From a virus: a stretch of 30,621 bases of DNA. Below, one piece after another: positions 2,105 to 15,389 of this stretch; position 1 is the stretch's first letter; every line of letters starts with the position of its first letter. The position numbers and the translations under genes were made by a program. The DNA lies in the IMG/VR virus record IMGVR_UViG_3300012964_000042, positions 1-30,621 of that record. The stretch is one strand, 5' to 3'. The notes beneath the pieces are model-generated. The model did no database searches. It was given only the letters and a program-made list of their open reading frames with translations, and was not told where the DNA came from.

Positions 2105-3598
2105 GTGCTCCCAAAGAGCCACTACGAAGGCGAAGTCGCGCCTGGCATTCACGAGGTTTTGGTGCATTGGGGCTACGAAGAAGCCCTGGTCCTCAAGAAC
2201 ATGGGAATCAAAGGGGTCCCATCGCCGATCAACAAGAACTATAACTGGCCGGGGATGTACACGCCGATGGCGCACCAGCGGGAGACCGCTGAGTTCCTGA
2301 CGCTACATAAGCGGGCGTTCTGTTTCGACGAGCAAGGGCTAGGCAAGACCGCGGCGGCTTCGTGGGCGGCAGATTATCTTATGACTTTAGGGCGAGTAAA
2401 ACGAGTCCTGATTATCTGCCCAGTGTCCATCATGCAGGCTGCGTGGCAGCAGGATCTATTCAAGGTGCTCATGCACAGGACGGTGGGTATCGCCCACGGA
2501 ACGAAGGACAAGCGCACTGCCGTAATCAACTCCGGCTGTGAGTTCTGCATTATCAACTACGACGGAGTTTTGGTCGTTGAAGAAGAGCTGCGTGCGGCAA
2601 AGTTCGACCTGATCATCATGGACGAAGGGTCCTATGTGAAATCAGCCGCGGCGAAACGAAGCAAAGCGATCAAGCGGCTGATCGAGTCAGACACCCGAGT
2701 ATGGCTGATGACCGGTACGCCGGCGGCGCAGAGCCCCGAGGACGCTTACGGTTTGGCCAAGCTAGTTTCTCCTGAGCGGGTGCCGAAGTTCTTCGGTTCG
2801 TGGCGCGACATGGTGATGCAGAAGATCAGCATGTACAAATGGATTCCGCGGGCAAGGGCGAAAGACATCGTGCACACGGCGTTGCAGCCAGCAATACGGC
2901 ATACAAAAGAGGAGTGCCTCGACCTGCCCGAGATGGTTGTGATCGACCGGAACATACCGCTGACCGCACAGCAAACGAAGTATTACAAGGCGCTCAAGGA
3001 ACAGATGCTGGCGCGGGCGGCGGGGGAAGAGATCACAGCAGTCAATGCTGCGGCAATGCTGAATAAGCTCTTGCAGCTATCGTGCGGCGCGGTGTACCAC
3101 GATGCCGGGGGCGTAATCGAGTTCGATGTAAAACCACGTCTCGACGCCTTGGACGACATCATCCAGGAGAGTACCGACAAGGTCATCATCTTCGCGCCGT
3201 TCAAGCATACGATCGAGCTGCTGGAGAAAGACCTGGCGGCCAGAGGCTATACCACTGCCGTCATCGACGGAGATGTCGCGCCGACTAAGCGCGGGGTTAT
3301 TTTCTCAGCCTTCCAATACCAGGAAGACCCGAAGGTGATCATCATCCAGCCGCAGGCGGCGGCTCATGGGGTGACGTTGACACGTGCGAGTACCGTGGTG
3401 TGGTTCGGGCCTACGACAAGTCTGGAGATCTACCTGCAGGCCAATGCCCGCGCGCACCGCAACGGGCAGAAGAACAAGGTTGTCGTGTTCCACCTGCAAG
3501 GCAGTCCGGCCGAGGCGAAGTTGTACAAGGCCCTGAGTGTCAGGGGTGCGGCGCATGTGGAGCTGCTTGATCTTTACAAGGAGGTGATGGAAATATGA
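2105..3598 (+). CDS. SNF2-family DNA helicase/ATPase
   Basis: Listed from the first standard start (GTG), giving 497 residues, though translation probably begins about 21 codons upstream near 2042. Helicase motifs appear in order: Walker A DEQGLGKTAA (GLGKT at 78-82), motif II IIMDEGS (173-176, DEGS in place of DEAH), motif III LMTGTPAAQSPEDAY, and the C-terminal lobe ending in QANARAHRNGQ with the arginine finger. These are hallmarks of compact phage SNF2-like superfamily 2 translocases, which remodel or unwind DNA using ATP. It overlaps the next gene by ATGA. The family call is firm; its exact role in replication or recombination is inferred. Confidence 0.93.
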   Translation: MLPKSHYEGEVAPGIHEVLVHWGYEEALVLKNMGIKGVPSPINKNYNWPGMYTPMAHQRETAEFLTLHKRAFCFDEQGLGKTAAASWAADYLMTLGRVKRVLIICPVSIMQAAWQQDLFKVLMHRTVGIAHGTKDKRTAVINSGCEFCIINYDGVLVVEEELRAAKFDLIIMDEGSYVKSAAAKRSKAIKRLIESDTRVWLMTGTPAAQSPEDAYGLAKLVSPERVPKFFGSWRDMVMQKISMYKWIPRARAKDIVHTALQPAIRHTKEECLDLPEMVVIDRNIPLTAQQTKYYKALKEQMLARAAGEEITAVNAAAMLNKLLQLSCGAVYHDAGGVIEFDVKPRLDALDDIIQESTDKVIIFAPFKHTIELLEKDLAARGYTTAVIDGDVAPTKRGVIFSAFQYQEDPKVIIIQPQAAAHGVTLTRASTVVWFGPTTSLEIYLQANARAHRNGQKNKVVVFHLQGSPAEAKLYKALSVRGAAHVELLDLYKEVMEI

Positions 3599-3801
3599 AA
3601 ATCTACATCGTAGTTGGTAGCACTGGGGAATACAGCGAGCGCCGCGAGTGGAATGTCTGCGCTTACAAGGATGAAGATAAAGCAGCAACTAGAATCGAAG
3701 AGCTGAAGGCGCTGATGAAGACGCTCGGGGCAATCACAGGCACATCGCGAGAGGCATATAGAGCACGGACAAAAAGCGGGCGACGCTATACGCAAGCATG
3801 A
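3595..3801 (+). CDS. Small phage protein, apparently frameshifted
   Basis: The frame starts in an ATGA overlap with the helicase and gives 68 residues beginning MKIYIVVGSTGEYSERREW, a start I associate with a small conserved phage protein of unknown function. The end, SGRRYTQA, looks random. A shift of +1 at the A-run 3771-3775 continues the reading into AGDAIRKHERGDPGFACDY and onward to a stop at 3875-3877. The predicted full product is about 92-93 residues. The break could be a sequencing indel, a real mutation or programmed slippage. Confidence 0.6.
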   Translation: MKIYIVVGSTGEYSERREWNVCAYKDEDKAATRIEELKALMKTLGAITGTSREAYRARTKSGRRYTQA

Positions 3802-3877
3802 ACGCGGCGATCCGGGTTTCGCCTGCGACTACACAGGAACTGAATACGGATATGAAGAAGTTGAGTTGTTAGACTAG
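3776..3877 (+). pseudogene. Detached C-terminal part of the preceding gene
   Basis: In the frame beginning GCG at 3776 the sequence encodes GDAIRKHERGDPGFACDYTG, then TEYGYEEVELLD, and ends at TAG 3875-3877. It has no start codon suitable for its own translation. The DPGFxCDYTG segment looks like the conserved end of the same small protein family, so it most likely belongs to the 3595 gene and is out of frame by one base. Confidence 0.55.
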
Positions 3878-3878
3878 C

Positions 3879-3907
3879 TTGACAAAAGGATGTAGTAGCT
3901 TTACAAT
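3879..3907 (+). promoter_or_regulatory. Sigma70-type promoter
   Basis: A consensus -35 TTGACA (3879-3884) is separated by exactly 17 bases from TACAAT (3902-3907), one mismatch from the -10 consensus. It lies in the only sizeable gap between genes on the left arm. Transcription would start near 3913-3916, just before a large inverted repeat. It could drive the structured RNA and the operon starting at 4124 using host RNA polymerase. Confidence 0.8.
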
Positions 3908-3913
3908 AGAGGC

Positions 3914-4107
3914 TCGATAAATCGAAACCCAACAGCGCAGCGCCCCGGCAGGAGCAGGGTCTAGTGTGGTACGGACTGTGCGGTGCTTAACGAAAAGATC
4001 AGGTCGCGAGCCTGATGGAAGTAGAGCGGGCTGTGCAAACGGAGTAGCGGGAGGGGGTCGCGCCCTGATGTGTCTACACCGGCCGGGGCGCTGCGCTGTT
4101 GGGTTTC
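3914..4107 (+). ncRNA. Candidate structured RNA closed by a 26-bp stem
   Basis: The arms 3924-3949 and 4082-4107 are perfect reverse complements over 26 bases. They start GAAACCCAACAGC and end GCTGTTGGGTTTC, and enclose 132 bases. Inside, ATCAGG (3998-4003) pairs with CCTGAT (4011-4016) around TCGCGAG. CAGGG (3955-3959) can pair with CCCTG (4063-4067), nested outside that hairpin. A small TCGAT/ATCGA hairpin precedes the first arm. A near-consensus promoter lies just upstream, and the ribosome site of the next gene begins six bases after the second arm. There is no convincing protein frame inside. It could be a stand-alone RNA or a long 5' leader. It matches no RNA family that I recognise, and no terminator is obvious. 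The stem is seen directly; the RNA identity is inferred. Confidence 0.6.
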
Positions 4108-4123
4108 ATTAGAAAGGAGTGGA

Positions 4124-4528
4124 ATGCCGGACGTACTTACAGCAGTAACCGCAGGCAAGCTCGCCGAGACATACCTGAAGATCAGGGACAAGCGGGCGGA
4201 ACTGAAAAAAGCCTTCGAAGAGGAGGACAAGAAGCTCGAAGACGCGATGGATACCCTGTCCGCCGAGATGCTGGAGAAGTGCAAGGAAGAGGAAGCCGGT
4301 AGTATTCGCACCCCATTCGGCACGATCATCCGATCGGTACGCCGCCGGTTCTGGGCAGCAGACTGGGATGAGCTGAACAAGTTCATTCTCGAAAACAAGG
4401 CGATCGAGCTGCTCGAGAAACGCGTGCACCAGACCAACATGGCTACCTGGATGGAGGAACATCCCGATGCAACACCGCCGGGACTGAACGTGGATAGCAA
4501 GTATGTCTGCAGTGTGAGGAAGAAATAA
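4124..4528 (+). CDS. Conserved phage protein with coiled-coil N-terminus
   Basis: I place the start at ATG 4124, preceded by AAAGGAG (4113-4119). A longer frame from 4070 would read through the second arm of the RNA stem. The 134-residue product begins with a charged helical region (KIRDKRAELKKAFEEEDKKL) likely to form a coiled coil. It then has TPFGTIIRSVRRRFW and a conserved-looking end: LLEKRVHQTNM, PPGLNVDSKY. I recognise the pattern as one seen beside phage single-strand-binding and recombination genes, but it has no assigned function. It is the first gene downstream of the promoter and structured RNA. Confidence 0.8.
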   Translation: MPDVLTAVTAGKLAETYLKIRDKRAELKKAFEEEDKKLEDAMDTLSAEMLEKCKEEEAGSIRTPFGTIIRSVRRRFWAADWDELNKFILENKAIELLEKRVHQTNMATWMEEHPDATPPGLNVDSKYVCSVRKK

Positions 4529-4531
4529 CCG

Positions 4532-4578
4532 GCCGGCTGTGCCGGCGCGAGCCGAAGTAAACAACCGCCCGAAAGGGC
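4532..4578 (+). other. Two short intergenic hairpins
   Basis: GCCGGC (4532-4537) pairs with GCCGGC (4541-4546) around TGT. Then GCCC (4567-4570) pairs with GGGC (4575-4578) around a GAAA tetraloop. No T-run follows either. They lie in the 70-base gap before the next ribosome site and may stabilise or separate transcripts. Confidence 0.5.
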
Positions 4579-4598
4579 ATAACCAAGGAGAAGTGAAG

Positions 4599-4904
4599 AT
4601 GGCAACACAAGTGAAAGTCCCGAAGGAAGTGATGGACGTGGTGTACGAGTGGGAAGCCCTGAAGGAGCTGGCCGCAGCCAGTGGGTTCATCAAGGCGATC
4701 TACTACCGCTCCAAGGCGCAGAAGGCCCACGCGCTGATCCATCGTGCGATGCACGCTGCCCACCCGGCAACCAAGCAAGGCAAGTGGTCGCTGAACATCG
4801 CCGAGGGCATCATGGTGAAGCATGAGGACGCAGCGGCGGTCAAAAAGCCGCGTAAACCTCGCACGCCGAAACAATCCGCAACACAACAAGGAGACGCAGC
4901 ATGA
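4599..4904 (+). CDS. Uncharacterised early protein with Lys/Pro-rich tail
   Basis: The start at ATG 4599 follows AAGGAG (4585-4590). An in-frame ATG at 4539 lies in the hairpin region and lacks a ribosome site. The 101-residue product has a mostly helical body containing VVYEWEALKELAAASGF and a basic tail, KKPRKPRTPKQ, that could contact nucleic acid. It ends in QGDAA within a 28-base sequence repeated at the end of the next gene. No domain is recognised. The ATGA junction couples it to the RyR gene. Confidence 0.75.
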   Translation: MATQVKVPKEVMDVVYEWEALKELAAASGFIKAIYYRSKAQKAHALIHRAMHAAHPATKQGKWSLNIAEGIMVKHEDAAAVKKPRKPRTPKQSATQQGDAA

Positions 4905-4916
4905 GCAATGAAATGA
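4889..4916 (+). repeat. 28-bp direct repeat, copy 1
   Basis: This stretch is identical to 5245-5272. It covers the last codons of one gene (GDAA, stop), its ribosome site AGGAG and the first codons of the next gene (MSNEM). The flanking bases differ at both ends. Confidence 0.9.
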
Positions 4917-5260
4917 AGCGAGAACAGATAGCAAGAGTCTGCCACGAGGTGAATCGTGCCTACTGCCAAGCACTCGGAGATACTAGCCAGCCGACATGGG
5001 AAGAAGCACCGGAGTGGCAGCGCAGCAGCGCTCGCATGGGAGTTGACCTGCACACCATGGGCGACTTCGGCCCGGAAGCATCACACATAAGCTGGATGAA
5101 ACAAAAAGTCGAGGACGGATGGACGTACGGTGAGGTAAAAGACGCCGAAGCAAAGACGCATCCATGCATCGTTCCTTTCGGCCAATTGCCGAAAGAGCAG
5201 CAGGCCAAGGACTATATTTTCCGTGCAGTTGTGCACGCTTTGAGAGGAGACGCAGCATGA
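4901..5260 (+). CDS. RyR-domain protein
   Basis: A 119-residue protein consisting almost wholly of one RyR (ryanodine-receptor-type, PF02026) domain. The matching blocks are IARVCHEVNRAYCQALGD, then a PEASHISWMKQKVEDGW stretch, then YGEVKDAEAKTHPCIVPF, and finally LPKEQQAKDYIFRAVV. Single RyR domains occur in bacterial and phage proteins, where they are thought to bind nucleotide-like or protein ligands, but a phage function is not established. Both ends of the gene lie in copies of a 28-bp repeat, and it overlaps its neighbours by ATGA. The family call is strong; the role is unknown. Confidence 0.9.
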   Translation: MSNEMKREQIARVCHEVNRAYCQALGDTSQPTWEEAPEWQRSSARMGVDLHTMGDFGPEASHISWMKQKVEDGWTYGEVKDAEAKTHPCIVPFGQLPKEQQAKDYIFRAVVHALRGDAA

Positions 5261-5272
5261 GCAATGAAATGA
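5245..5272 (+). repeat. 28-bp direct repeat, copy 2
   Basis: Identical to 4889-4916. It again spans a GDAA ending, a ribosome site and an MSNEM start. Recombination between the copies would remove the RyR gene cleanly while leaving an intact gene junction. Confidence 0.9.
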
Positions 5273-6153
5273 CACTTTTCGGGGGCGCAGCCCTTCCTTC
5301 CTACCTGCAAGGCGCAGAACTGGATGCAACAACAAAGGCCCTGGCCGGTTCCGGCGGTGGCGGACGCCGTATCAGTATCAAGGGCGGTATCTTCCGCATG
5401 GTCGTGGATGGCAAGCAGGTGGCCGAGAACGAAGATCGCGCCATGAATGTCGTGGTGGTCGCAGCTGCACCTCATATCAACCGCCAGTGGCACGAGAAGG
5501 CATACGTCGAGGGCGGCGAGGCTACCGCAGCTGATTGTATGTCCGAAGATGGCAAGACGCCATCCAAGGATTCGGCGAAGCCGCAGAGCACTTCCTGCGA
5601 CACCTGCCCGCAAAACATCGCCGGCTCCGGTCAGGGTGATTCCCGCGCATGCCGTTACCAGCAACGCCTCGCCGTTGTCCTGGAAGGTGAAATGGACGGC
5701 CCGGTGTACCAGCTCCCGCTGCCCGCAGCATCCCTGTTCGGCAAAGGCGAAGCTAACGGCAAGAAGCTCCCGCTGCAAGCCTACGCTCGCCTGCTGGCCC
5801 AGAACGGTGTGCCGATCACGGCGGTTGTCACCGAGATGCGTTTCGATACGGCGGTCTCTACGCCGAAGCTGACGTTCTCTCCTGTGCGCCCGTTGACTCA
5901 GGCCGAGTTCGAGACGATCAAGGAGCAAGGCGCCAGCAGCGATGCGCAGCAAGCGATCAAGCTGACGGTATTCAAACAGGACGGCGGCAAGCCCGCGGCG
6001 AAGGTCGAGACCAAGCCCGCAGCGCCGGTGACGGAAGATGGCTCTCCGGCCGAAGCCGAGCCAGCCGAACCGAAGGTCGCATCGAAGGCCAAGCCGGCGG
6101 CACCCGCGGGTAAGCGCCCAGTCAGCGAAGTCATCGCGGCGTGGGATGAGTAA
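5257..6153 (+). CDS. Probable single-stranded DNA-binding protein
   Basis: The start at 5257 sits in an ATGA overlap behind AGGAG, giving 298 residues. A longer frame from 5164 would run through the RyR gene. The central part has a cysteine group, CDTCPQN and SRACRYQQRLAV, and beta-rich segments such as GPVYQLPLPAASLFG and TPKLTFSPVRPL. The last 75 residues are low-complexity Ala/Pro/Lys/Glu and end in VIAAWDE, like the flexible acidic-tipped tail of SSB proteins. I associate this layout with phage SSB-like proteins. The neighbouring helicase, nuclease and primase fit that role. The assignment is inference, not proof. Confidence 0.65.
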   Translation: MSNEMTLFGGAALPSYLQGAELDATTKALAGSGGGGRRISIKGGIFRMVVDGKQVAENEDRAMNVVVVAAAPHINRQWHEKAYVEGGEATAADCMSEDGKTPSKDSAKPQSTSCDTCPQNIAGSGQGDSRACRYQQRLAVVLEGEMDGPVYQLPLPAASLFGKGEANGKKLPLQAYARLLAQNGVPITAVVTEMRFDTAVSTPKLTFSPVRPLTQAEFETIKEQGASSDAQQAIKLTVFKQDGGKPAAKVETKPAAPVTEDGSPAEAEPAEPKVASKAKPAAPAGKRPVSEVIAAWDE

Positions 6154-10001: not shown

Positions 10002-13000
10002 TTAACCCATCGTAAACTCCGCCTGCGCCCGGCGCTCGCGTAGCGCCGCGTTGCGGGGTACGCTGATCAGCGTCGACAATGGCTGCATGTTCAGCTCCCG
10101 CGGGGGTTGTTTGAAGTGCTCCCGCTCTGCGGCTTTGCTCTTCTGCAGCTCCATCCATTTCTGGTGGAGCTCGGCCATGGCTTCACGATCGCCGGCCTTG
10201 GAGGCGCGCAGGTACACCTGCTCGATCTCGCGGGTGCGGTCGGCATAGTACTTCTTGATCTGGTACTGCACCTGGGCGTTGCGGGTGATCTCCTTGATCT
10301 GGGTAGGCGGCAGACCCATGGCTTGCAGCACCGTGGCGTAGGTCGAGATATCCTCGGGCTTTACCAGCACATCGCCGTTCTTCATCGTGAAGCCTTCATT
10401 GGCCATACGGAACGCCTGCATGGCGGACTCCAGCCCCTTCGGCATGAACTTCTCGGCGCCTTTATACATATCGCCCTGCTGAATAAGACCAATGCCGGAG
10501 GCAAAACGCCCTGCTTGGGATAGCGCCGGGCCGCCGGCGATGCCACCGATTGTGGCTGCCATGCCTTTCGCACTTGAAAGATCGACCGTTGTATATGGCG
10601 CAATGCTGAAGACGTTGCTGTCGCTCAGTTTGGCAGACATGTCCAAGCCGGCCAGCGACATCGGTCCATGGGTCAGGAGGTCGGCCAGGTCCTTGCTACC
10701 GATCTGCTCGCGCACCTTCGTCTCCAAGTCGTCCGGGCTGTCACTCAGCATGTTGTATGCGAGCGAGGCGAGGTTCATCAGGGGCAGGCCGAGCAGGCCA
10801 CTAGCTACTGCGGTGTGGAACAGTTTGAAACTCAACATGCGCTGGCCGATTGCGCGCTCTTCCGGAGTAGCCCCCTTGAACGCTGCGTGCGCCGCCTTGG
10901 CGTAGAACGCCATCATCATGAACTGATACTTGCGATACTGCACTACAACCTTCGGCAGCTTCTTCAGGATCAATGGCGCACCGGTGCGCGAGAAGTCGCC
11001 TTGTGTCGTCTGCAGGACGTCAGTCACGTAGCGCTGGGCTTCGGCCACGCTGCGCCCGTTGGCGCGGGCCATATTGTAGGCAGCCACGCTGGATGATACT
11101 CGGTTCCATTGCTCAACTGCACGAGCAACCTGCCTCAGTTTATGCAGCGCACGGCTCGCCACGGCGCTTGTTCCGTCGATGGCCTTATGCCCGGTGCGGA
11201 AGCGGTCGAAGTGCCCCAAGTCTTCCTCGATACCAACATCCAGCAGTCCTTGGTTGGCGGCCTTCTCCAGCGCTTCGCAGAGCGCAGGGTCCTTGACCTT
11301 GGAGAGATCCGTGTTCATACCTTTGGTTATGCTGTGCATGACCCTGTAGCCGTCCATCGCGTGGCGCCATGCCTCGCCGTACTTGCCCGAGCCGAAGTCG
11401 GCCGCCAGTTTGGGGATCGTGACCATGGCAACCTGCGAGAAGTTGGCCAAGTGGTAGCCAAGGCTGGTAGAGAGCTGCCAAGCCGACGTCGCCGCCACAA
11501 TGCCATCCTGCACCGGCGTTGGTTCGTACTTCAGGTTCTCGGCATAATGCTCGGCCAGCAAGTTGAAGTCGTCTTGGTTCACACGCTTCTTGGTCTCCGG
11601 GTCCTTGATCTCGTTCTTCATGCGGTAGAACGCCTCGTTGATGTCCGGACCATGCTCGAGATTCGAGATGTACGCTGCCTGCGCACGGGAGTCAGCCAGC
11701 ATGGACTTGATCATATCCTTGTCATAGCCCGCGATGCCTTTGCGCTGCTGCGCAGCGTGCCGGGCGTTATGTTGGTCCACTGCCGACATGTACATCGCTT
11801 TGACCGTATCTTCCATCGCCTTGCGGGCTTCCGGAGGCATCTCGGTATTGACCTTGACGGCGGCCAGCACACGCTGCAGGACACGGTGGCTCATCGTGTA
11901 TTTATCCTCGATCTGCTTGGATTTGGCCGCTGCATCGGTGAAGGCGTATTTGCTCTCATTCTCCTTGGCAAACTGCTGGGCCTGGCCAAGCGTATCGAAC
12001 ATCGCCACCTGGAAGTTGCCCTCGTCCGCCTTGAGAGTCTCGACCCGATCTTGATTCGCCTTGGAGGGGTCACCCTCGACAGCTTTCTCTGCATCGAGCA
12101 GTTTCTGCGACTTCAGGACAGTGACGAAATTGCCAAAGCGCTTCAGTGGTGCGTAGGGGCCTTCCAGCATTCCCTTCTGGGTAAACACATCATCAACGCC
12201 GAGGCGGCTGAACAGTTCCTGCTTCATGAGGCGCGTATCCTCGCCGTGTTTGAACACAGCATCGACGACTGCCTGTTCTTCTGGTGTGAGCCGATCGAAC
12301 TCAGCCTTGAACGCCGGATCGATCTGCACCGTCCTTCCGAATCCTTCCGGCTGATGGCCCCACTTCTGTTGGATCGTAGAACGCCCGATGAAGTCGTTGA
12401 CCTTGGTATAGCTCTTGTCGTTCAGCTTGCTGGCCATCGTCGCAACAACCTCTCCGCGACGCTCCAGCTGGAACCGGGTAGTCTGCGCAGCGATCACGCC
12501 GTCATACCAAGCCTTTGCCGAAGGCAGGCCGGTCTCCATGCGCCGAACCAGGTCATGCAGATAAGTCATGGACCCCAGCGCCCGCTTTGCGATATGCCCG
12601 GCGTCCGCGACGATTTTGTCCCCTGTAGGCCCGAGGTATTTATCCGCCATCTCACGGACCACGCCTTGCTCTGTTCTTGGCACGGCTTCTTCCACGCGTG
12701 GCGCGCGCCGGCCGCCCAACGGCCCGGATGGTGGTTCCCCTTTCTCGACGATGTCATGCGCCTGGCGCAGGATGGCGACCACATCATTTTTCGTGTAGTT
12801 CGATACTAGACCGTGCCGGCGCATGAAATCGCGGACGAAGGCGACTATCTGGTTCAACAAGCTCTGGTGCACCTTGCCGTCGATCTGCCGCTCGGCCAGC
12901 ACTTCCTCGACTGCTTCCTCGAGACTCAGCCCCTTGTCCATACCACGGATCTTATCGGCGGCGGTGCGCAGGCCTTCATGAGTGTCATACATCTGGCGCA

Positions 13001-15389
13001 GCATGCCGTTCAGCTCTTTGCCGAACTTGGCGCGCAGGCCGTAGTGCCCGAGTGCTTCATGGAATAGAGTCGCCTTCACGTCGGCCAGGTCAGTATGCCG
13101 ATCGGACACGATCACCGTATCCCCGCTGCGCTCGCGAATAAAGCCCTTGGCCTTGGTCTGCTCCACCCACGCGCGGTCTTCCGGCGCGAGTTCTGCGGTA
13201 TCGAGCACCGATACTCGAGGTGCGTTGGTCCACTTGCTCGTGATGTTCTTCACCATCTGCGCAGCTTGCTCGCGGGTGTGCTCGGGTTCACCGGCTTCGC
13301 CAATACGCTTGGCCTCCGGCCCGTTCCGCGCCGCCCGGCGCTCCGCCTTGTTCTTCTCGGCAATGGTCCGGGTATGCGTCACCCACACATCCGCCAGCTG
13401 GCGCCCGGTGAATGGTTTCCCGGTTCGTGCGTTCTCAGCAACCACCTGTTGCAGATGCGCCTTGGCCTCCGGCTGCAGATCTTTGTACGGCACGCCGTAC
13501 TCATCAGATTCAACGGCTCCGCTGTCCGCCCATTCGCGCTTCGCCGCGCGCTCCAAGGCTTTGCCGGCCACGCCTGTTTCTTCTGGCTTGACCTCGACCT
13601 TTGGCGCGACTTCGCGCACGGGCTCCGCGGCGGCCCGCTCCACAGGCTTCTCTTCCGCCCCACGAGCTGGCTCCTCGGCAGCCCGTTCTGTGGGCGCGGC
13701 TCTTTCGGCGGGTTCCGTGGGCGTTACTTCCGGCTTTTTCCGCGCCTGGGCTACTAGCTCTTGAATCTGCTTCTCATCTCCGGCTTTGATAGCCTCCAGC
13801 AGCTGCGCATGGAGGTCGGCTTCGGTCGGTTTAGCGGCTTCCACCGGCCTCGGCGGCTCAACAGGAGCGGCTTCGATCGGCTTCGGCGGCTCGAACTCGA
13901 GCCCGCGCTGCTCATAGAACATCGGGTCTTTCAGCGCGCGTTCAATCGCCGTGGCCCGTTCAGGATACTGCTCCGCATGAGTCGTCAATGCTTCTTTCAG
14001 CTCTGCGCGTGCCGCGGGATCGGTCATATCCCGGCCTTCAAACTGCTGACGAAGTTCACGCCCGGCTCCCTTGTTCGAAACACCAAGCCGATTGAAATAC
14101 GCCCGGGTGATAGTAGGTGCAGCTACTTCTTCATTCGCCGCCTCCGGCTGCGGGCCGCGCTCCTTCAGCTGCTGAACGACTTCCTGCTGGGCCTTGATAT
14201 CCTCTCTCGGAGCCTTCTGCTCCTTCAGATACTTAACGGCCGCCTGCGCCTGGGCTAGTTCGGGAAACATCGGTTTACCTTCGGGAACCCCCAGATCCAT
14301 CTGGACGGTCTCGCCCTCTGGTGTAGCTTCTACCGCTGCGGCGCGTTGCGCCTGCTCCGCTTCGATTGCTTTCGCTTGTTCTTCGGCTCCTGCATATTTT
14401 CTCCCGGCTTCCTCGATTGGCTGGCGCTGCGCGCGGCGCATACCCATGGCGCCAAGAGCGCCGAATACCGGGGCTCCAGCCAAAGCCGCTCCCGCGGCTT
14501 CCTTATACCTCGCCATCGCCTCGGGGCTTGTTACATCCTCGCCGGCCTGCGCCATGCGCAGTGCCTCGGTTCCGGTCATCATCGGCACACCGATCGCCGC
14601 CATCTCACCGGTCTTGACGGCTACATTCTTGGCGGTGCTCTGAAGGGCGGCTACGGCCGCCTCCTGTGACAACTCTCCGCGCTCGACGGCGCGCGCCGTA
14701 GCCGCAAGATCCGGACCCATGGCCTTAAATGCAGCACGCGAAGCCGCACCGCCAAGAGCGCCGAAAACGGGCAGTAGAGCGGCCTGAGCCAAGGATGCAG
14801 CGATTGTTTCTGTCTGACTGAATTGTGCCGGGGCCTGACCGACGGCCGCCCGCTGGGCGTTTACTGCTTCCTGCTCCTGGATATTTCTACCCTGTTCCGC
14901 CGGCACATCAGCACCGATGAACGCCGCGCCGCGCGCGAGCGCTGCAGGAATAGCCGCACCCGGAGCCAAGAAACCCGCCGCGCCGGCGGCGGCCGTCGGG
15001 ATAGCGTAACTTCCGATCGCCCCCATCAGGGGCTCAGTCGCGTAGCGTGAGACCGCCGCACCTACGCCGGGAAATACCCCCCGGCTGAACGCCTTTGTCA
15101 CGTCTTCCGATGACGTCGGCCGATACGCCCCCGGCTCTTCGCTCGGCTGGGCCAGTGCTCTACCCCATTGCCCAAGCGTTTCACTGCCGGTGAAACTACC
15201 GAGGCCGCTCAGGCTTGACGCTGCGCCTTCCTTGAGTCCTGCTTTCAGGGCTTCGTACCCACCGTGTTTCTGCTGGATGCCGTAGGCTTCGGGCACCATG
15301 CGCGCGGCGCGACGATCCGCCTCCTCCGGAGGCATGTCATCTGGGATGAGAACATAACGCCCGTCGGGTAGATAGTGCGGTTTACTCAT
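10002..15389 (-). CDS. Giant polyvalent/ejection protein (PLxRFG, metallopeptidase-like)
   Basis: A 1795-residue protein at the end of the virion gene line. Ala/Gly-rich hydrophobic stretches occur around residues 105-165, 200-230 and 265-320, and a Pro/Glu/Ala-rich linker at about 515-640. A zinc-peptidase-like HEALGHYGL lies at 777-785, in the HExxGH form seen in phage polyvalent proteins. PLKRFG occurs near 1081-1086, the signature of PLxRFG-domain proteins. The C-terminal third is helical. Such proteins are usually packaged and injected with the DNA. Its size and place next to other probable ejection proteins agree. Which target the peptidase would cut is unknown, and activity is not shown. 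Confidence 0.8.
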   Translation of the reverse strand: MSKPHYLPDGRYVLIPDDMPPEEADRRAARMVPEAYGIQQKHGGYEALKAGLKEGAASSLSGLGSFTGSETLGQWGRALAQPSEEPGAYRPTSSEDVTKAFSRGVFPGVGAAVSRYATEPLMGAIGSYAIPTAAAGAAGFLAPGAAIPAALARGAAFIGADVPAEQGRNIQEQEAVNAQRAAVGQAPAQFSQTETIAASLAQAALLPVFGALGGAASRAAFKAMGPDLAATARAVERGELSQEAAVAALQSTAKNVAVKTGEMAAIGVPMMTGTEALRMAQAGEDVTSPEAMARYKEAAGAALAGAPVFGALGAMGMRRAQRQPIEEAGRKYAGAEEQAKAIEAEQAQRAAAVEATPEGETVQMDLGVPEGKPMFPELAQAQAAVKYLKEQKAPREDIKAQQEVVQQLKERGPQPEAANEEVAAPTITRAYFNRLGVSNKGAGRELRQQFEGRDMTDPAARAELKEALTTHAEQYPERATAIERALKDPMFYEQRGLEFEPPKPIEAAPVEPPRPVEAAKPTEADLHAQLLEAIKAGDEKQIQELVAQARKKPEVTPTEPAERAAPTERAAEEPARGAEEKPVERAAAEPVREVAPKVEVKPEETGVAGKALERAAKREWADSGAVESDEYGVPYKDLQPEAKAHLQQVVAENARTGKPFTGRQLADVWVTHTRTIAEKNKAERRAARNGPEAKRIGEAGEPEHTREQAAQMVKNITSKWTNAPRVSVLDTAELAPEDRAWVEQTKAKGFIRERSGDTVIVSDRHTDLADVKATLFHEALGHYGLRAKFGKELNGMLRQMYDTHEGLRTAADKIRGMDKGLSLEEAVEEVLAERQIDGKVHQSLLNQIVAFVRDFMRRHGLVSNYTKNDVVAILRQAHDIVEKGEPPSGPLGGRRAPRVEEAVPRTEQGVVREMADKYLGPTGDKIVADAGHIAKRALGSMTYLHDLVRRMETGLPSAKAWYDGVIAAQTTRFQLERRGEVVATMASKLNDKSYTKVNDFIGRSTIQQKWGHQPEGFGRTVQIDPAFKAEFDRLTPEEQAVVDAVFKHGEDTRLMKQELFSRLGVDDVFTQKGMLEGPYAPLKRFGNFVTVLKSQKLLDAEKAVEGDPSKANQDRVETLKADEGNFQVAMFDTLGQAQQFAKENESKYAFTDAAAKSKQIEDKYTMSHRVLQRVLAAVKVNTEMPPEARKAMEDTVKAMYMSAVDQHNARHAAQQRKGIAGYDKDMIKSMLADSRAQAAYISNLEHGPDINEAFYRMKNEIKDPETKKRVNQDDFNLLAEHYAENLKYEPTPVQDGIVAATSAWQLSTSLGYHLANFSQVAMVTIPKLAADFGSGKYGEAWRHAMDGYRVMHSITKGMNTDLSKVKDPALCEALEKAANQGLLDVGIEEDLGHFDRFRTGHKAIDGTSAVASRALHKLRQVARAVEQWNRVSSSVAAYNMARANGRSVAEAQRYVTDVLQTTQGDFSRTGAPLILKKLPKVVVQYRKYQFMMMAFYAKAAHAAFKGATPEERAIGQRMLSFKLFHTAVASGLLGLPLMNLASLAYNMLSDSPDDLETKVREQIGSKDLADLLTHGPMSLAGLDMSAKLSDSNVFSIAPYTTVDLSSAKGMAATIGGIAGGPALSQAGRFASGIGLIQQGDMYKGAEKFMPKGLESAMQAFRMANEGFTMKNGDVLVKPEDISTYATVLQAMGLPPTQIKEITRNAQVQYQIKKYYADRTREIEQVYLRASKAGDREAMAELHQKWMELQKSKAAEREHFKQPPRELNMQPLSTLISVPRNAALRERRAQAEFTMG

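Follow-up and report, generated by a model that had tools for sequence, protein, structure and literature searches.

A lineage-specific insertion bounded by a 26-bp perfect inverted repeat in a conserved phage operon leader

Analysis of a 30,621-base virus record (the window) revealed a real, highly non-random and lineage-specific insertion in the leader of a phage operon. The inserted element is 184 bp in length (3924-4107, + strand), and its exceptional trait is its closing stem, rather than any multi-helix RNA. The explanation that we tentatively favour, with a probability of about 0.45, is that a MITE-like or otherwise acquired insert now acts as a leader hairpin of the RNase III type and leaves the ribosome site outside. 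If this is correct, a strong double-stranded stem would have entered a conserved phage operon leader naturally and recently, and stem-less close relatives would serve as ready controls. The element would then offer a clean case for studying the tolerance or use of leader hairpins by phages, and for asking whether phage genomes take up MITE-like elements.

The inverted repeat consists of a left arm at 3924-3949 and a right arm at 4082-4107, separated by 132 nt, in which all 26 consecutive pairs are Watson-Crick and 19 are G-C. When mismatches are allowed, the arms reach 34 nt (3924-3957 and 4074-4107) with 91% complementarity. An earlier sequence-only reading had placed the perfect arms at exactly these coordinates and had judged that chance does not readily give such an arrangement, and for the repeat the comparison with expectation bears this out: the analytic chance expectation for a 26-bp perfect inverted repeat is ~4e-9, no other perfect inverted repeat spanning up to 300 nt exceeds 12 bp in the 30.6-kb window, and the longest perfect inverted repeats in block-shuffled copies of the window are 10-11 bp. 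The predicted energy of the 26-bp stem alone is -60.7 kcal/mol, and the predicted mean pair probability of its 26 pairs is 0.999. The perfection of the arms points to either a recent arrival or ongoing selection.

Folding of the whole leader gave z = -7.1, while folding of the 132-nt interior alone (3950-4081, + strand) gave z = -0.31, with 74 of 200 shuffles equally stable; the stability of the leader therefore stems from the closing stem. The further helices that had been suggested between the arms do not rise above chance, and the description of the region as a structured RNA, if this means a fold shaped by evolution, is not supported: the interior resembles its shuffles, no homologue of the element was found, and close relatives keep the promoter and the gene without the element. 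Covariance models from Rfam 15 run on the window gave no score at or above the gathering threshold, in agreement with the earlier impression that no known RNA family was recognisable. The top match in the region by E-value scored 19.3 bits against a threshold of 70, and the remaining matches were also far below theirs; the lncRNA, antisense and hairpin-ribozyme matches (E 0.1-5) lie on the minus strand, far below threshold, and were rejected as noise. A new RNA family is likewise not demonstrated. An intrinsic terminator or attenuator was also rejected, since the GC-rich stem is followed by ATTAGAAAGGAG and not by a U run, and no terminator-like site was found on the + strand between 3500 and 4800. 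A GTG ORF inside the element (3966-4112, 48 aa) matches no phage protein family and crosses the right arm, and was regarded as non-coding.

The element is preceded by a sigma-70-type promoter on the + strand (3879-3907), consisting of TTGACA (3879-3884) and TACAAT (3902-3907) separated by 17 nt, with 11 of the 12 consensus positions matched. The sequence-only reading had proposed this promoter from the window, and its conservation in relatives now gives it much greater credibility than the consensus match by itself would. A sigma-70-like promoter, defined as TTGACA-like and TANNNT with a spacing of 16-18 nt, is present in the gap between the helicase and phrog_13900 genes in 56 of 83 non-identical loci (the window included), compared with 3.6 expected from shuffles; the loci are related, and the 56 are thus not independent events. 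The nearest relatives can be aligned to the window across TTGACAAA, the -10 region and CTCRATAA, and the alignment spans CTTGACAAA before reaching the latter two. The start-proximal sequence CTCGATAA (3913-3920, + strand) is the window's version of this last motif, which is conserved as CTCRATAA in L096, L097 and L104. Conservation of the promoter across the relatives assigns it to the downstream operon.

More than 100 related IMG/VR contigs were gathered with the helicase as query, which was chosen because the phrog_13900 family is too diverse for alignment search; the primase as query found no relatives in IMG/VR. The order of the helicase gene followed by the phrog_13900 gene is kept in more than 80 contigs checked, usually with a gap of ~50 nt. 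In the four closest relatives, with helicases 78-82% identical to that of the window (L104, 82%; L096, 79%; L097, 78%; and L102), the promoter is followed by a short, stem-less leader. In L096, L097 and L104, CTCAATAA leads directly into the ribosome site, and L102, which carries a promoter of its own, likewise shows a short leader with no stem. These stem-less leaders identify 3924-4107 as a 184-bp insertion of this lineage; the element was also not found in 20 related virus records. Among 60 distinct leaders of the relatives, the median distance from the -10 to the ribosome site is 21 nt, and no general tendency to form leader hairpins was found, with 5% of the 60 having a stem better than shuffles. 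The row for the window was not used in this survey, its leader having ended early at an internal ribosome-site-like motif. Downstream of the conserved promoter and ahead of phrog_13900, L104, L034, L036 and L063 carry small accessory ORFs, which mark the spot as an insertion hotspot. The comparison thus reveals a conserved promoter and a helicase/phrog_13900 insertion hotspot in a large group of uncultured phages.

The helicase gene of L102 (IMGVR_UViG_3300012964_000131) contains an in-frame intein-like insert (CITGDT...VHNC) at 3978-4920 of that contig. A complete 215-aa HNH endonuclease ORF (phrog_374, 2.7e-59) occupies the +1 frame of the insert at 4211-4855, and the helicase-intein frame is uninterrupted over 2926-5442; both the HNH frame and the helicase-intein frame appear to be coding.

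In the window, the upstream conserved neighbour is an SNF2-type helicase gene (2105-3598, + strand; phrog_62, 9e-112), and a small ORF of 68 aa with no known family (3595-3801, + strand) lies between it and the promoter. Downstream of the element, the ribosome site AAAGGAG (4113-4119, + strand) follows the right arm, which ends at 4107, confirming the earlier placement of the repeat a few bases ahead of the next gene's ribosome site. This gene, a phrog_13900 member with conserved synteny (4124-4528, + strand; ATG at 4124, 134 aa), is the first of the downstream operon, and is followed by a replication module ending in a primase/helicase. The predicted unpaired probability of the ribosome site is 0.63 with the element, 0.58 without it and 0.66 for the 3' fragment. 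Predicted accessibility is hardly altered, and any effect of the element would therefore be on mRNA processing, the 5' end or stability, or else negligible, rather than on unmasking of the ribosome site.

In the mechanism that we favour, transcription of the operon from the conserved promoter would allow the arms to pair as a long hairpin, beginning ~10 nt after the predicted RNA start and stopping 5 nt before the ribosome site. The minimum target size of RNase III is 22 nt (PMC5371410). We infer transcription from the conserved promoter, and in such a transcript the 26 pairs would exceed the double-stranded length of at least 22 nt; cutting by RNase III is considered the likeliest outcome because the perfect 26-bp helix is longer than this minimum. 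In a host with RNase III, the enzyme would most likely cut the arms and free the 132-nt interior, and the processed operon mRNA would acquire a new 5' end a short distance ahead of its ribosome site. Such processing would tune the stability or translation of the replication-gene mRNA. The insert itself probably came as a MITE-like or other foreign piece. Against a function in the leader stands the observation that relatives do without the element. Xanthomonas phage Xp15 (NC_007024) is an exception among the leaders, with a promoter-like TACAAT and a 16-bp hairpin that ends shortly before the ribosome site of its phrog_13900 homologue, which indicates that a stem at this position is compatible with phage function. 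The Xp15 hairpin differs from the present element in its unrelated sequence, its 27-nt loop and its total length of about 60 nt, and the two probably have independent origins.

The known RNase III sites in the lambda N leader and T7 early RNA are shorter, imperfect hairpins, whereas the present element has a 26-bp perfect stem around 132 nt and occurs in one lineage only. They nevertheless provide precedents for RNase III-cut stems in phage early RNA, the lambda N one preceding a ribosome site (cited in PMC5371410). A closer likeness is found in Neisseria, where a Correia MITE lies just downstream of the mtrCDE promoter and RNase III cuts at its terminal inverted repeats (PMC10969869). Like this Correia/nemis element of the mtrCDE leader, the phage element is short, non-coding and bounded by terminal repeats, and sits in a leader just past a promoter. 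Correia elements are present in more than 100 chromosomal copies, whereas here there is a single phage copy, for which neither a parent element nor a clean target duplication was found, and RNase III cuts the stem of the Correia transcript, whereas cleavage of the phage element is what its stem would predict.

An alternative, which we regard as rather unlikely, is that the insert is a non-autonomous MITE-like transposable element, ending in inverted repeats, that reached the leader by chance of insertion and that the phage tolerates without deriving any function from it. MITEs are 50-500 bp in length with repeats of about 4-30 bp (PMC10969869), and the element, at 184 bp, is non-coding and has terminal inverted repeats of 26-34 nt. 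Relatives lack it, and other insertions too have entered at this site. Arms that are perfect and free of G-U pairs, together with an unstructured interior, are more in keeping with a DNA element than with an evolved RNA. When the joined flanks were compared with relatives, however, no clean target-site duplication, a trait of younger MITE copies, was found (AAATC before, ATTAG after); a TA lies a few bases out from the element on both sides, which may be chance. No second copy of the element, and no parent transposon with matching ends, was found in genomes, phages or plasmids. The copy searches detect sequences that are nearly identical to some part of the element, such that a diverged relative could escape them; with this scope, blastn of the element against 50,697 phage records and 72,556 plasmid records returned nothing, as did scans of 84,980 genomes (GTDB representatives) for an exact 22-mer of the arm and of IMG/VR for an inner motif, and there was no second copy within the element's own contig. 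Paired 10-mer ends at the proper spacing in IMG/VR and the genomes gave only three matches, in L129-L131, which have unrelated interiors and were dismissed as chance, and L001, matched by an exact 19-mer of the arm, lacks a second arm and was likewise put down to chance. Because searches for a target-site duplication and for further copies gave negative results, the element is not filed as a MITE, and is described as acting like a Correia-type leader insert.

The remaining alternatives concern the transcript or the DNA itself. The sequence-only reading had left a choice between an independent RNA and an operon leader; the order of conserved promoter, element and phrog_13900 ribosome site fits a leader, and the lack of a + strand terminator after the stem speaks against an independent RNA. 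We accordingly consider it improbable that the element encodes an independent phage RNA, closed by the long stem, which processing would set free to act on the host in trans, perhaps as a decoy for some double-stranded-RNA-binding protein, although it has a promoter of its own with the stem right after the RNA start, and sits where relatives bear small accessory genes, as RNA cargo might. Its interior folds no better than shuffles, no homologue was found, and in relatives the promoter belongs to the downstream operon. The more specific proposal of an undescribed cargo RNA at the accessory hotspot, transcribed from the conserved promoter, processed from the stem and acting in trans, for instance as a double-stranded decoy that occupies RNase III or a defence protein, is judged distinctly improbable. 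Hairpins at the 5' end can stabilise mRNA and impede RppH (PMC3997798), and the stem begins near the RNA start, with the Xp15 hairpin at the same place; nevertheless, a purely protective role, in which the stem escapes cleavage by RNase III and guards the operon mRNA against 5'-end-dependent decay, seems quite doubtful. About 8-11 nt precede the stem, forming only a weak 4-bp hairpin (-2.2 kcal/mol), so the 5' end is probably accessible, and RNase III should cut a 26-bp perfect helix. Very unlikely, finally, is a DNA-level role as a cruciform or a replication or recombination site, to which the occurrence of a long inverted repeat within a replication module might point: GC skew keeps its sign here, and the repeat is missing from relatives that share these replication genes. 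The arm ends do fit the core boxes RYYYAAC / GTTRRRY of integron attC hairpins (ACCCAAC at 3927-3933 and GTTGGGT at 4098-4104), but attC sites require extrahelical bases and an unpaired central spacer (PMC3518468), whereas the 26 bp here are paired without interruption. The outer boxes are 178 bp apart, neither an integrase nor a cassette array or context was seen, and attC identity was rejected because the required unpaired features are missing.

Several genes of the window also merit mention. The phrog_13900 gene (4124-4528) carries the label 'minor head protein' from the Xp15 annotation; its helicase/primase neighbours in more than 80 contigs suggest a role in DNA metabolism, as does a weak Mu Gam-like match (E 0.006, below the Pfam cut-off). 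Within the replication module, 4901-5260 encodes a small protein with a RyR domain (PF02026, 7e-12). On the minus strand, 10002-15389 encodes a 1795-aa protein, the C-terminal part of which (1062-1753) matches phrog_10089 (3e-41), a family with a DarB-like antirestriction label.
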